Assembly: GCA_003150225.1 (NCBI GenBank)
Contig: QAND01000035.1
Coordinates: 1-40,319 of the forward strand
Source: Bacillota bacterium
Lineage (GTDB): Bacteria > Bacillota > Clostridia > Christensenellales > QAND01
DNA: 40,319 nt
Direction: 5' to 3'
The position numbers were made by a program, and so were the translations under genes. Below the pieces are notes generated by a model that saw nothing but the letters and a program-made list of their open reading frames with translations, was not told the origin of the DNA and did not search any database. This document shows positions 34,707 through 39,847 of this stretch, piece after piece (the first letter of the stretch is position 1; every line of letters begins with the position of its first letter).

Positions 34707-34779
34707 GGGGAATTTATGGTACTATTAGGAAGCATACTGGCATGGTATGGCCCCGGGCCGGTTCCGGGGAAATTACCTG

Positions 34780-34796
34780 CCGCCGGACGCCGGCGG
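34780..34796 (+). promoter_or_regulatory. Hairpin at the ribosome binding site of the O-antigen ligase-like gene
   Basis: CCGCCGG (34780-34786), loop ACG, CCGGCGG (34790-34796), immediately before AGGG. It covers part of the GGCGGAGGG site, so it may limit translation. A CCCCGG/CCGGGG hairpin lies just upstream (about 34751-34769). Confidence 0.5.
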
Positions 34797-34812
34797 AGGG
34801 ATGAAGGCGGCT

Positions 34813-36252
34813 ATGATGACGATCGCTGGATGGAAAGCGGCCCTGAACGACATTGGCCTATTCAAAAAATGCTATCTGCTCAACGCGCTGTTTATCACCT
34901 TTTATTTTTATAGCTGGGGGAGGATCAGCACCATTACCTCCGTGACGCTGACCCTATGGGGCGCCTATCTGATGCTCCAGGGTTTTTTGCACCGGCAATT
35001 TGATCTGCGTCAAAAGGGACTCTGGATGCTGGCGGTCTTCTTTGGGGCGCTCTGCATGTCCTCCCTGGTGAATCTGCCCAACGGCTGGATGAAAAATGCA
35101 CAGGCCATCGCCCTGGCGGCGGTGACCTTTCTTGTGGTCTATTATTTGGAGCCCCAGGATTCGGCAAAAGAGAAAAAGGATTTTGAGGGATGCCTGAAAA
35201 TCATCATGGTGTATAGCTGTGTGATGAGCAGCATTTCCCTTTTGATGTATTTTTCCAACATCTGTATCATCAACTATCCCGACCGGTATGCCGGTATCTA
35301 CCTGAACCCGATTCTTTCCGGCTTGGTGGCCAATGGGGGATTGTTCTGCACCGTATACTTTCTGTGGGGCTGGAAACGCCGTCCCTGGCGCATCAAGGCC
35401 CTCTGTATCGCGCAGATGGTGGTACAGACGGTTGTGATGATCATCGGGAACTCACGTTCCGCCTACTGTTGCTTTGTGGCCTTCTTTGTGATCTACATTG
35501 GGATGCAGATCGCCAACGGAAAGCTGCTGCAAAATCCCGTGTGGAACCGTGTTCTAAAGGTGGCCATCGCCCTTGTGACGGTGGCGGTCATCGTGGTGGG
35601 CAGCAATTTCTTGGCCGAGGGGATCAACCGAGGCGTTTATGAGCTGAACAAGGCCATCTTCTCCCTGCGCTATCCCGACTATGATCCCGATTCCCCAAAT
35701 TATGGGGATACCGACAACTGGTTTACGCCTCATCCCCTGGAACGCAGCAATGAGGAGGCGTCCAGCAATATCCGGCTGAACATGATCGCCACTGGCTGGG
35801 ATACCTTTAAGGAGAATCCCATTCTGGGGACCTCTCCCGGGGATTTGATCCGCTCGGTTTTGGATACGTCGGAGCGCCAGGGCCAGCCGGAGGACTCGCT
35901 GCAGGGCATCGAGGGCGGGCGGGTACACAACGCCTACCTGGATGTTTTGGTGAGCATGGGGCTTTTGGGATTGATCCCTATGATACTGTTTGCGGTTTAC
36001 TCGGTGATCAAAGCCTACCAATGCACCTTTGCCTGCCGAAAGGACCGGCCCGCCTATGATCATAACACCTTTGTGGTGAGCGTGATCGGCGCTATGGCCA
36101 CCTTCTTCTTCATGGAATCCGCCATGCTGTTTACCATGTCCTTCGCAGAGGCGTTTTTCTGGCTTTCCCTGGGGCATCTAGCCCAGCGGGCGAAATTTCA
36201 GGGGAAGCGGACCTCCCCTCAGGTTGACAAAAACGGCGTGTGCCATTTATAA
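34813..36252 (+). CDS. O-antigen ligase/polymerase-like membrane protein
   Basis: A 479-residue polytopic membrane protein with about ten hydrophobic segments. A large extracytoplasmic loop (roughly residues 285-385, with PDYDPDSPNYGDTDNW) and the conserved RVHNAYLDVLVSMGLLGLIPM segment match the Wzy_C/O-antigen ligase family. In Gram-positive bacteria such proteins polymerise or attach exopolysaccharide or teichoic-acid-like polymers; the exact role is unknown. The start is uncertain: ATGs at 34801, 34813 and 34816 share one frame; the first touches GGAGGG directly, so I use 34813. The stop codon lies inside the -10 box of the RNA promoter downstream. Confidence 0.8.
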   Translation: MMTIAGWKAALNDIGLFKKCYLLNALFITFYFYSWGRISTITSVTLTLWGAYLMLQGFLHRQFDLRQKGLWMLAVFFGALCMSSLVNLPNGWMKNAQAIALAAVTFLVVYYLEPQDSAKEKKDFEGCLKIIMVYSCVMSSISLLMYFSNICIINYPDRYAGIYLNPILSGLVANGGLFCTVYFLWGWKRRPWRIKALCIAQMVVQTVVMIIGNSRSAYCCFVAFFVIYIGMQIANGKLLQNPVWNRVLKVAIALVTVAVIVVGSNFLAEGINRGVYELNKAIFSLRYPDYDPDSPNYGDTDNWFTPHPLERSNEEASSNIRLNMIATGWDTFKENPILGTSPGDLIRSVLDTSERQGQPEDSLQGIEGGRVHNAYLDVLVSMGLLGLIPMILFAVYSVIKAYQCTFACRKDRPAYDHNTFVVSVIGAMATFFFMESAMLFTMSFAEAFFWLSLGHLAQRAKFQGKRTSPQVDKNGVCHL

Positions 36253-36253
36253 T
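36224..36253 (+). promoter_or_regulatory. Consensus promoter of structured RNA A
   Basis: TTGACA (36224-36229), 18-base spacer, TATAAT (36248-36253). It sits within the last codons of the O-antigen ligase-like gene, whose TAA stop is part of the -10 box. Confidence 0.85.
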
Positions 36254-36259
36254 GTAGAA

Positions 36260-36459
36260 AATATATCCATGGATACCATAGGATGGGGAGTGATCCCCAC
36301 ATTCCGAGCCCCTCTCCCTACGGATGGTTTCTAGGGGAGCCGGGCCAATGGGTCTGGGTGGAAACGCCTTGGCCTCCCGCATTTGGAAAGGAATGAACAT
36401 CGGCGGCTGATCGCCCTTGTTTGTGATGCAATCTAAAAGCGGGAATCCCCGCTTTTTTT
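36260..36459 (+). ncRNA. Structured RNA A: riboswitch-like element, unrecognised class
   Basis: About 200 bases with its own consensus promoter and terminator. An outer helix pairs CATTCC (36300-36305) with GGAATG (36390-36395). Inside are CTAGGGG (36331-36337), ATGGGT, a small hairpin GGGT-GGAA-ACGCC with a bulged G (36356-36368), CCTCCCGC (36373-36380) and TTTGGAAAGGAA (36382-36393). The same blocks in the same order occur in RNA B. GGGAG (36335-36339) can pair with CTCCC (36374-36378); alternatively TCCCGC (36375-36380) can pair with GCGGGA of the terminator (36439-36444). No gene lies between its terminator and the promoter of RNA B, so copy A seems orphan. Confidence 0.6.
36439..36459 (+). 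terminator. Terminator of structured RNA A
   Basis: GCGGG (36439-36443) pairs with CCCGC (36448-36452), followed by T7. Its 5' arm is complementary to the conserved core of RNA A. Confidence 0.85.
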
Positions 36460-36546
36460 GTTTGTTTGGGGGGAAGGATACACCATGCTATCTCTCTCTG
36501 CGAAATTGAGATTCCCCTCCCTTTTTCGCAAGAATTGGATAGGGTA

Positions 36547-36578
36547 GGGCCGTCGCAAGACGGCCCTATCTTTTTTAA
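36547..36578. terminator. Second terminator between RNA A and RNA B
   Basis: GGGCCGTC, loop GCAA, GACGGCCC, then TATCTTTTTT. It isolates RNA B from upstream transcription. The stretch 36461-36546 shows no gene. Confidence 0.9.
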
Positions 36579-36631
36579 AAAGGGAAGAGTATTCCAATTT
36601 TGAAAGACTACATAAGTAGTATAAATTTTCT

Positions 36632-36660
36632 TTGACGAGGATGGAGGCGCCTTTTATAAT
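36632..36660 (+). promoter_or_regulatory. Promoter of structured RNA B and the iron alcohol dehydrogenase
   Basis: TTGACG (36632-36637), 17-base spacer, TATAAT (36655-36660). I see no other good promoter between here and the dehydrogenase gene. Confidence 0.85.
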
Positions 36661-36665
36661 AAGAA

Positions 36666-36873
36666 ATACAAAAAGCATGTGAACGATATCACAATAGGGA
36701 CAGTTCGATTCCGAGTTGATTCGTCTAAGGGCCTGACGCCTAGGGGGAACCAACCGATGGGTGGGGTAGGAAACGCCCCCGCCTCCCGCTTTGGAAAGGA
36801 ACGAATTTCGGCCGCGGCGGCGCGGTGGATTTTGTTTTACCCGGCGGGAGGAGAACTCCCGCCGTTTTCTTTT
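36666..36873 (+). ncRNA. Structured RNA B: riboswitch-like leader of the iron alcohol dehydrogenase
   Basis: A second copy of the RNA A pattern. The outer helix is TTCG-TTCC (36704-36712, one bulged A) with GGAACGAA (36798-36805); this side differs from A yet still pairs. Shared blocks are ATTCCGAG, CTAGGGG (from 36740), ATGGGT (36757-36762), the hairpin GGGGT-AGGAA-ACGCCCC with bulged G (36763-36779), CCTCCCGC (36782-36789) and TTTGGAAAGGAA (36790-36801). CCTCCCGC is perfectly complementary to GCGGGAGG (36844-36851) in the terminator, so core folding and termination exclude each other. GGGGG (36743-36747) can alternatively pair with CCTCC. I could not match it to a class I know. Confidence 0.65.
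36842..36873 (+). terminator. Terminator of structured RNA B (attenuator)
   Basis: CGGCGGGAG (36842-36850), loop GAGAA, CTCCCGCCG (36856-36864), then TTTTCTTTTG. It lies 66 bases before the alcohol dehydrogenase start codon. Confidence 0.88.
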
Positions 36874-36939
36874 GTATCTATAGCTTTCGCTGGTGGAAGA
36901 CTAGCGGAAAATAGAAATATGCCATAGGAGTGAAAACAG

Positions 36940-38142
36940 ATGTTGCAGAATTTTGTACAGCAGATCGGAACGAAGTTCATCTTCGGCAAGGATGCTGAAA
37001 AGCAGGTGGGCACCGAGCTGAAAGCTTTGGGCGCCACCAAGGTTTTGATCCACCATGACAGCGGTCAATTCCTGTATGACAGCGGGCTGCTGGAGGCCGT
37101 AAAGGGGTACCTCACCGATGCTGGCCTTGCCTATGTGGAATTGGGCGGCGTACGGCCCAATCCCCGGCTGAGCAAGGTCCGCGAGGGCATCGAGCTGTGC
37201 CGCAAGGAGGGTGTGGACTTTATTCTGGCCATCGGCGGCGGAAGCGCCACCGATTCCGCCAAGGCCATCGCCCTGGGCACCGCCTATGACGGCGACGTGT
37301 GGGACTTCTATGCGCACACCGTCAGCATGGAGGACGCCATGAAGGTGCAGGCCCTTATGATCGGCTGCCTTCTGACCTATCCCGCTACCGGCACCGAGGT
37401 AAGCGGCGGCGGCGTGATCACCAATGACGAAACCCTGGAGAAGCGGCCCTATGGAAACCCCAACGGCAGCACCCGGAGCAGGGTTTCCTTCATGAACCCG
37501 GAGCTTTCCTACACCCTGCCTCCCTATCTGACCGCCTGCGGCGTGGTGGATATGTACTCCCATATCATGGAGAAATATTTTACCCCCGATACCGATTTCG
37601 GTATTATGGACCGTTTGGCCGAGGCCGGCATGCGGAACATCCTGGTGTATGGTCCCAAAGTGCTGGAGGAGCCCACCAACTACATGTATCGCGCGGAAAT
37701 CATGTGGTCCGGCTGCGTAGGCGCGGACAACTCCCAGGGCCTGGGCCGCGAGCAGGATTGGGCGCATCACTACATCGGCCATGAGATCAGCGCTCTTTAC
37801 GATACCGCTCACGGCGCTACCCTGACCATCATGTGTCCTGCCTGGATGAAGTATGTGTATAAGCACAATCTGCCCCGGTTCGTCCGGTACGCTGTGGAGG
37901 TGTTTGGCGTGGAGAACGATCCCAGCAATCCCGATTGGGTTGCTCAGGAGGGCATCCGCCTGACCACCGATTTCTTCCGCCGCATGGGTCTGCCCACCTC
38001 CTTCGCCGAGGCTGGCCTGCCCACCGACAAGTTTGATCACATCGCCAAGATGGCTCCCATCAGCCAGGGCGATGACCATATCGGCTCCCTGATGCCCCTT
38101 TATGAGAAGGAGTGCCGGGAGATCCTGGAGCTGGCCCGGTAA
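36940..38142 (+). CDS. Iron-containing alcohol dehydrogenase (butanol dehydrogenase-like)
   Basis: A 400-residue group III alcohol dehydrogenase of the BdhA/YqhD type, reducing aldehydes with NAD(P)H. The dinucleotide site is AIGGGSATDSAKAIA with the preceding KVLIHHDSG. The metal ligands are expected in CGVVDMYSHIMEKYF (Asp and His) and in the GHEISALYDTAHGATL block (both His). The opening FVQQIGTKFIFGKDAEKQVG is standard. Strong codon bias suggests high expression in fermentation. TAGGAGTGAAAACAG precedes the ATG. It appears to depend on the promoter upstream of RNA B, so expression would be set by that attenuator. A strong terminator follows. Confidence 0.92.
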   Translation: MLQNFVQQIGTKFIFGKDAEKQVGTELKALGATKVLIHHDSGQFLYDSGLLEAVKGYLTDAGLAYVELGGVRPNPRLSKVREGIELCRKEGVDFILAIGGGSATDSAKAIALGTAYDGDVWDFYAHTVSMEDAMKVQALMIGCLLTYPATGTEVSGGGVITNDETLEKRPYGNPNGSTRSRVSFMNPELSYTLPPYLTACGVVDMYSHIMEKYFTPDTDFGIMDRLAEAGMRNILVYGPKVLEEPTNYMYRAEIMWSGCVGADNSQGLGREQDWAHHYIGHEISALYDTAHGATLTIMCPAWMKYVYKHNLPRFVRYAVEVFGVENDPSNPDWVAQEGIRLTTDFFRRMGLPTSFAEAGLPTDKFDHIAKMAPISQGDDHIGSLMPLYEKECREILELAR

Positions 38143-38578: not shown

Positions 38579-39847
38579 ATGTCCTTTTTAACGGCTTTGC
38601 GTGGCGTGATCAATACCATCAATGTGATCACCATGCTGATCCTGTTATACCAGTTGGTAATCGCGCTATTCTGTCTGAAGGACCGGCCCAAGCGGCAGAA
38701 CCAGGTGGACCGCAATCATCGGTTTGCGGTGATCATCTCGGCCCGGAACGAGGAAAACGTCATTGGCCATTTGATCGCCAGCCTGATGCGGCAAAACTAT
38801 CCTCGGGAATGCTTTGACGTGTATGTGGTGGCGGACAACTGCACCGACGCCACCGCCCAGACCTCCCGTGACGCTGGCGCCATCGTCTATGAGCGGTTTG
38901 ACGAGGCCCATAAGGGCAAGGGCTTTGCGCTGAAGTGGATTTTTGACATCATCCTGGCCCAGCGGCCCGACGACTACGACGCCTTCTGTATCTTTGACGC
39001 CGATAACCTGGTGGATCCAAACTACCTGGCGGCCATGAACCGGCAGCTGTGCTGCGGACAAGACATGGCCCAGGGCTATCGGGATATCAAAAACCCGGGG
39101 GATACCTGGGTATCGGGCAGCTATGCCATCTACTTCTGGTGTCTATCCCGGTTCTATCTTCGGGCTCGGGATAACGCAGGGCTGTCCTGTTTGGCCAGCG
39201 GCACCGGATTTATGTTCCGTTCCGATTTAATCCGCCAAGAGGGCTGGAATACCTCGACCATCACTGAGGACAGCGAATTCTCCATTCAGCAAATTTTGAA
39301 GGGGAGGAAGATCGTCTTTGCGGAGGACGCCATCTTTTACGATGAGCAGCCCACCAAGTTTAAGCAGTCCATGCGCCAGCGGTATCGCTGGGCGGTGGGG
39401 AACGTCCAGTGTTTGATTCTTTACCTGCCCCAGATCTTTAAAAAGGGACGAACCAACAACGTGGGCCGTTTTGCGCTCACCGATCTGGTGATCTATCTCA
39501 TCGCCATGCCGGGAACCGGTCTAGTGGTCATTAACCTGATTCTAACCCTCCTGATGGGGTGGATGGTGGACAGCAGCTGGGTGGAGATCCTGCTCCAGGC
39601 GGTGGTGCCCATCCTATGCAGCCTGGGGATTATGTTCATCCATGGGATCATCACCGTGCTGATGGAAAAGAAGGATCTGCGTACCGTGGTCAAGGGGCTG
39701 TTTGGATGGCCCATCTTCCTGTACACCTGGATGTACATCAACCTATCCGCCATCTTATACCGGGATACCACCTGGAAGCCCATTGCCCATACCAAGAGCG
39801 TGAGCATCGAGAGCATGGCGGCTGAGAACCAGGGGGAGATCAAATAA
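38579..39847 (+). CDS. Family 2 glycosyltransferase (processive, membrane-bound)
   Basis: A 422-residue membrane glycosyltransferase of the cellulose/hyaluronan/poly-GlcNAc synthase style. One N-terminal helix (about residues 12-33) is followed by the GT-A domain: FAVIISARNEENVIGHLI, the Asp of VADNCTD, DADN (metal binding), TEDSEF (catalytic base) and RQRYRW (acceptor/product site, Q/RxxRW). About four C-terminal helices follow from residue 300. The set of motifs suggests a processive polysaccharide synthase, but the sugar is unknown. It probably acts with a surface-polymer pathway that may include the O-antigen ligase-like protein, with which it shares regulatory boxes. Confidence 0.88.
   Translation: MSFLTALRGVINTINVITMLILLYQLVIALFCLKDRPKRQNQVDRNHRFAVIISARNEENVIGHLIASLMRQNYPRECFDVYVVADNCTDATAQTSRDAGAIVYERFDEAHKGKGFALKWIFDIILAQRPDDYDAFCIFDADNLVDPNYLAAMNRQLCCGQDMAQGYRDIKNPGDTWVSGSYAIYFWCLSRFYLRARDNAGLSCLASGTGFMFRSDLIRQEGWNTSTITEDSEFSIQQILKGRKIVFAEDAIFYDEQPTKFKQSMRQRYRWAVGNVQCLILYLPQIFKKGRTNNVGRFALTDLVIYLIAMPGTGLVVINLILTLLMGWMVDSSWVEILLQAVVPILCSLGIMFIHGIITVLMEKKDLRTVVKGLFGWPIFLYTWMYINLSAILYRDTTWKPIAHTKSVSIESMAAENQGEIK

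Follow-up and report, generated by a model that had tools for sequence, protein, structure and literature searches.

The Moco/tungsten-cofactor riboswitches of family RF01055 were surveyed by Regulski in 2008 (PMC2408646), and 58 of the 176 RNAs in that survey lacked the P3 stem. The P3-less type was linked there to the tungsten cofactor; 17 of the 19 organisms with such RNAs had genes pointing to metabolism of the tungsten cofactor. Moco and Wco riboswitches are also listed in tandem arrangements, the Wco ones lying before genes unrelated to cofactor synthesis (PMC9481103). Riboswitch control of noncoding RNA is documented for other ligands: vitamin B12 riboswitches control AspocR and Rli55 in Listeria (PMC8079631), and a SAM-II riboswitch is reported to yield an sRNA (PMC9373788). 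MOCO riboswitches predicted to act antisense (PMC9943018) represent a different layout. IsrR is the iron-sparing small RNA of staphylococci (PMC9410917). Among the listed titles and abstract openings on both topics, none concerned a Moco/Wco riboswitch controlling a small RNA, and no paper uniting molybdenum cofactor, riboswitch, sRNA, tungsten and aldehyde was found.

Here we analyse two riboswitch RNAs, A and B, in a 40,319-nucleotide stretch of Bacillota bacterium DNA (contig QAND01000035.1, all of it referred to as the window). With a probability of roughly 0.55, A and B are separately promoted, tungsten-type RF01055 OFF switches, of which B gates an iron-containing alcohol dehydrogenase gene and A gates a small RNA.

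Organisation of the locus

RNAs A and B, the element between them and the dehydrogenase gene were present within positions 36224..38142 of the + strand of the window, as follows:

36224..36253, + strand: promoter A, TTGACA-18-TATAAT, 12 of 12 consensus bases
36290..36409, + strand: aptamer A, RF01055 without the P3 stem, 69.8 bits, model positions 1-135
36373..36380, + strand: conserved core CCTCCCGC of A, from block comparison, motif scan and pairing analysis
36435..36463, + strand: attenuator terminator A, hairpin 36435-36456 followed by a T-rich tail, with 5' arm GCGGGA able to pair with the core
36484..36582, + strand: conserved structured element, from conservation and folding; proposed small RNA gated by A
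36510..36521, + strand: C-rich loop GATTCCCCTCCC of the element, invariant between both species
36543..36576, + strand: terminator of the element, a helix of 12 pairs capped by a GCAA loop and followed by six T
36632..36660, + strand: promoter B, TTGACG-17-TATAAT, 11 of 12 consensus bases
36697..36817, + strand: aptamer B, RF01055 without the P3 stem, 59.9 bits, model positions 1-135
36782..36789, + strand: conserved core CCTCCCGC of B, from block comparison and pairing analysis
36842..36864, + strand: attenuator terminator B, with 5' arm GCGGGAGG able to pair with the core (8 pairs)
36940..38142, + strand: iron-containing alcohol dehydrogenase, the gene behind B (Pfam PF00465, 6.7e-37)

The nearest relative, Clostridiales SIG367 (genome G001, locus L001), was reached through the dehydrogenase, with 82% identity. 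G001 keeps the order of aptamer, terminator, element, promoter, aptamer, terminator and dehydrogenase. The counterparts of promoters A and B were located at 2354-2382 (12/12) and 2750-2778 (11/12) of L001. Polysaccharide genes flank the riboswitch locus in the window on both sides, with a Wzy_C (O-antigen ligase) gene before it (34747-36252) and a glycosyltransferase family 2 gene after it (38579-39847). A plasmid search with window positions 36200-37200 found nothing.

Riboswitch family and ligand subtype

Membership of A and B in RF01055 is near certain. An Rfam scan of the whole window returned two matches, both to this family and both covering the full length of its model, with scores far above the gathering cut-off of 36 bits. 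The initial annotation had described the two RNAs as unrecognised, which these strong, full-length matches refute; the Moco riboswitch was missing from the list of families that it had compared. A novel riboswitch class is likewise ruled out by the Rfam matches. The initial annotation's view of A and B as riboswitches with attenuators is supported.

In the RF01055 alignments of both copies, the GAAA tetraloop on P4 and the UUUGGAAAGG core were present, and the model positions of P3 were gapped. Judged from these sequences, the tungsten cofactor would be the likelier ligand. Three proteins of the AFOR_C family are encoded in G001, which is a sister genome and not the window's own. The same genome encodes one protein of the Molybdopterin family (PF00384), which keeps the molybdenum cofactor among the possible ligands.

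Promoters, terminators and core-arm pairing

The sequence blocks said to be shared by A and B were found by eye at their places. The longest of them, CCTCCCGCNTTTGGAAAGGAA, had a single occurrence with up to three mismatches, in copy A (0 of 100 shuffles); the pattern misses copy B because the block is one base shorter there. A near-consensus promoter and an intrinsic terminator had been proposed for each copy, and the scan recovered both promoters, together with three further, weaker sites (9-10/12; 1.0 site expected in all), as well as the hairpins of A (36435-36456) and B (36842-36864).

The core of A can pair with the 5' arm of its terminator through TCCCGC/GCGGGA (6 pairs), and that of B through CCTCCCGC/GCGGGAGG (8 pairs), and our counts matched the 6 of 6 and 8 of 8 bases given before. 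Watson-Crick pairs between core and arm were possible in all four leaders, with 5 in copy A and 7 in copy B of G001. In the latter, the core CCTCCCGT and the arm ACGGGAG showed a matching change. A fifth leader, L084, had 8 core-arm pairs when G-U was counted and 2 otherwise.

Among 1000 downstream shuffles, the Watson-Crick pairing was equalled 64 times for window A, 9 times for window B, 185 times for G001 A and once for G001 B; with G-U allowed, the counts were 167, 73, 689 and 4, respectively. For L084, 996 of 1000 shuffles equalled the Watson-Crick pairing and 49 of 1000 the pairing with G-U. Given these counts, the pairing in copy A is not clearly above chance in either species. Taken leader by leader, the evidence for core-arm pairing is good in G001 B and fair in window B, whereas in copy A alone it is weak or absent. 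The complementarity that the initial annotation had put forward as riboswitch evidence is thus notable in B, whereas in A taken alone it is not. With the RNA truncated right after the 5' arm, the forced pairing came at no predicted energy cost in A, B or G001 A, and at a cost of 0.2 kcal/mol in G001 B and 0.8 kcal/mol in L084.

In the proposed mechanism, the core CCTCCCGC would pair with the 5' arm of the terminator when the ligand is absent, and RNA polymerase would read on. Bound ligand would make the aptamer hold the core, so that the terminator could form, which would make each copy an OFF switch. Our confidence in such an attenuation model for B is fairly high. Ligand-induced termination, as predicted from the core-terminator pairing, is well supported for B and weakly for A.

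A conserved structured element between A and B

A's attenuator is followed by no gene. Instead, an element of about 95 nt (36484-36582), on which the initial annotation was silent, as it was on the third terminator, lies between A and B and ends before promoter B. The element consists of two stems and a C-rich loop that is invariant between the species, and it ends in a terminator of its own. Stem 1 is formed by CTATC/GATAG, and stem 2 by TGCGAAA/TTTCGCA around the loop. G001 carries the element at the same place.

In pairwise alignments with G001, 49 of 55 positions of the stem region were identical, compared to 96 of 122 (79%) for aptamer A and 90 of 122 (74%) for aptamer B. The two species are well apart, since identity at the fourfold sites of the dehydrogenase was 95 of 161 (59%). 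The stem region also ranked top in identity (51/57) among the 17 stretches compared in a joint MAFFT alignment. Because conservation of the promoters, of the terminator of the element and of aptamer B (62%) comes out too low in that joint alignment, we used the pairwise values for the aptamers and the element.

The whole element folded with z-scores of -6.0 and -5.1 in the two species. The stem region alone, without the terminator, gave -3.9 and -4.8, and 0 of 200 shuffles folded as well in either species. Three pairs of the terminator helix were changed on both sides in L001, which 57 of 500 shuffles equalled in this comparison of two sequences. Stems 1 and 2 showed no variation between the species, so the two-sided changes are confined to the terminator and are what any terminator would show. 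All six changes in the stem region fell at unpaired columns, with a chance of 0.025 for a structure that was picked from the same two sequences.

The promoter and terminator scan of the window missed the element's terminator, and the scan of L001 gave its copy at 2648-2679. In neither the window nor L001 did a promoter-like site separate terminator A from the element; a weak 9/12 site begins within the element in the window (36506-36535). Promoter B starts about 55 bases downstream of the element's T run in the window and about 65 bases downstream in L001. With a terminator at its end, promoter B beyond it and no promoter before it, read-through at A would most simply yield the element RNA. 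We consider the chances about even that the element is a small RNA gated by A.

Alternative readings of the locus

The locus might be an ordinary tandem, pseudo-cooperative Wco riboswitch, in which transcripts from promoter A get past its terminator and the middle hairpin and run through B, both copies control the dehydrogenase, and the element serves as a spacer or a third attenuator. There are descriptions of tandem Moco and Wco riboswitches, one of them a triple with separate terminators (PMC9481103, PMC2408646). However, B has its own 11/12 promoter-like site in both species, and the middle hairpin combines 12 pairs with six T. A single tandem leader for A and B is doubtful because the two copies are promoted separately and a terminator stands between them. 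Moreover, the stem region of the element is more conserved than the aptamers, which would not be expected of a spacer. We regard the tandem arrangement as rather doubtful.

A could also gate a tiny protein, given that an ORF at 36485-36547 (MLSLSAKLRFPSLFRKNWIG) follows the SD-like stretch GGAAGGAT. The frame in G001 gives LLSLSAKLRFPSLFA from TTG; the 13 residues that follow the start are identical, and both base substitutions upstream of a deletion are silent. That one-base deletion, however, shifts the frame, leaving a peptide of 15 residues vs 20 in the window, and the TTG start in G001 has no SD-like stretch before it. A peptide would also leave the strong folding of the stem region unexplained, and we find it unlikely. 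Least probable in our judgement is a DNA operator or insulator for promoter B, made by the inverted repeat TGCGAAA/TTTCGCA in place of a trans-acting RNA. Though this repeat does not differ between the species and promoter B follows it at a distance of about 100 bp, the repeat's spacer and the flanking stem 1 are conserved too, and a terminator with two-sided pair changes directly follows.

Relatives and possible targets of the element

In our preferred reading, A gates no gene. Its output would be the structured RNA of about 95 nt with its C-rich loop and terminator, made as a small RNA when the tungsten cofactor is scarce. We also consider, tentatively, a wider possibility: scarcity of the cofactor may release a trans-acting small RNA with a C-rich seed through A and a tungsten-independent dehydrogenase through B, which would amount to an all-RNA tungsten-sparing response.

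The element as a whole was seen in two species only, those of the window and of G001. DNA searches of 200 genomes from the order and 391 from the class, both being samples of larger groups, turned up no further full relative; the class search gave two short matches, one 23 and the other 26 bases long. When 396 sampled genomes of the order were scanned with a covariance model built from the two element sequences, 50 matches resulted, that in G001 among them. The C-rich loop was absent from all 29 that were inspected of the 49 matches outside G001, and such a two-sequence model picks up mainly GC-rich hairpins. No exact match to the element core was present in the viral contigs searched. Identity with a known small RNA was also rejected, as no Rfam match was credible (RF02590 on the minus strand, 26 vs a cut-off of 208; RF04180, 18 vs 80.4). 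The Rfam scan of the L001 stretch gave five matches, every one below cut-off.

The complement of the loop, GGGAGGGGAAT, occurred with at most one mismatch at 34 sites in G001, including the element's own copy, vs 28 for the reversed pattern, and is thus not clearly enriched. Some of these sites precede gene starts. Those just before start codons include what we take, by eye, to be tilS and the genes of malic enzyme and L-serine dehydratase. No tungsten enzyme was recognised by eye among the gene starts at the 30 sites examined in G001. As the loop complement gave neither clear enrichment nor a recognised tungsten enzyme, the tungsten-sparing idea is a hypothesis without a target.

The dehydrogenase and other probable RF01055 targets

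B would gate an alcohol/aldehyde dehydrogenase of the iron type. Its best solved relatives were NADH-dependent butanol dehydrogenases, with YqhD lower in the list. The enzyme could plausibly provide tungsten-independent aldehyde handling when the cofactor for aldehyde:ferredoxin oxidoreductase is short. Of 80 loci that hold relatives of the dehydrogenase, several of them short upstream, a single one had RF01055 over the cut-off, so this control looks local; as a general theme, RF01055 control of the dehydrogenase was rejected on the same count.

Besides the copies of A and B, G001 contains four other RF01055 elements. They precede a TupA-like gene, two iron/B12-type ABC transporter operons and an MscS-type channel gene; the TupA-like and transporter names rest on NCBIfam scores below the curated cut-offs. 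We assigned the label "BtuF-type" to the iron/B12 transporter protein ourselves. The mechanosensitive channel gene (L166, G001:C49) is an unexpected target. One of the three AFOR_C (aldehyde:ferredoxin oxidoreductase-family) genes of G001 is preceded by an RF01055-like leader (L170, 611-712) scoring 21.9 bits, below cut-off, which is possibly a divergent subtype.

RF01055 was over cut-off in 36 of 396 genomes in the sample of the order. We surveyed 53 elements, namely the 51 over cut-off from this sample and the window's two, for ORFs of at least 100 aa starting within 450 nt downstream. TupA was matched by 18 of the ORFs, AOR by 3, and the BtuF-type protein and the dehydrogenase by 2 each, and 26 had no match to these four references, which were taken from the window and G001. 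The only two elements without such an ORF were A and its copy in G001. Among the 26 unmatched ORFs was an aldehyde dehydrogenase in L099 of genome G107 (by Pfam), with a similar one, recognised by eye, in L156 of the same genome. In L091 (G024:C39), an ORF of 134 residues is preceded by two RF01055 elements with 57 nt between them.

The dehydrogenase side of the locus suggests a rule by which a plentiful tungsten cofactor would hold tungsten-independent aldehyde enzymes off. The aldehyde dehydrogenase-family gene behind RF01055 in G107 is one further hint of this rule.

Comparison with known systems

The riboswitches themselves are known, and what would be new is the wiring of A to a conserved RNA. 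If it is true, the wiring of a riboswitch to a noncoding RNA would recur with another metal cofactor, that of tungsten, and the element would offer a concrete sequence for probing metal sparing in Clostridia.

Compared to the Moco/Tuco riboswitches reported by Regulski (PMC2408646), A and B are alike in sequence and structure across the model, in the P3-less subtype and in the terminator-type expression platform. They differ in the iron-type alcohol dehydrogenase behind B and in copy A, which has no gene. The term "alcohol dehydrogenase" has 0 occurrences in the main text of that paper, and in the literature compared, as far as it was available to us, an iron-type alcohol dehydrogenase is not named as a target of RF01055. 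With the tandem Wco riboswitches (PMC9481103), the locus shares a pair of consecutive Wco-type aptamers upstream of a gene that is not related to the synthesis of the cofactor. Here, however, a separate promoter-like site serves each aptamer, and a conserved, terminator-ending element lies between them.

Rli55 and AspocR (PMC8079631) resemble the arrangement proposed for A, in that the ligand ends transcription early and a longer noncoding RNA is made without it. They differ in the ligand and in the mode of action, Rli55 working via an ANTAR element and AspocR being antisense to pocR. The element also resembles IsrR (PMC9410917), which by its description has stems of low covariation, single-stranded C-rich regions and a poorly conserved terminator, and which ties metal scarcity to a small RNA. 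IsrR, however, is under Fur, whereas the element would be governed by a riboswitch.
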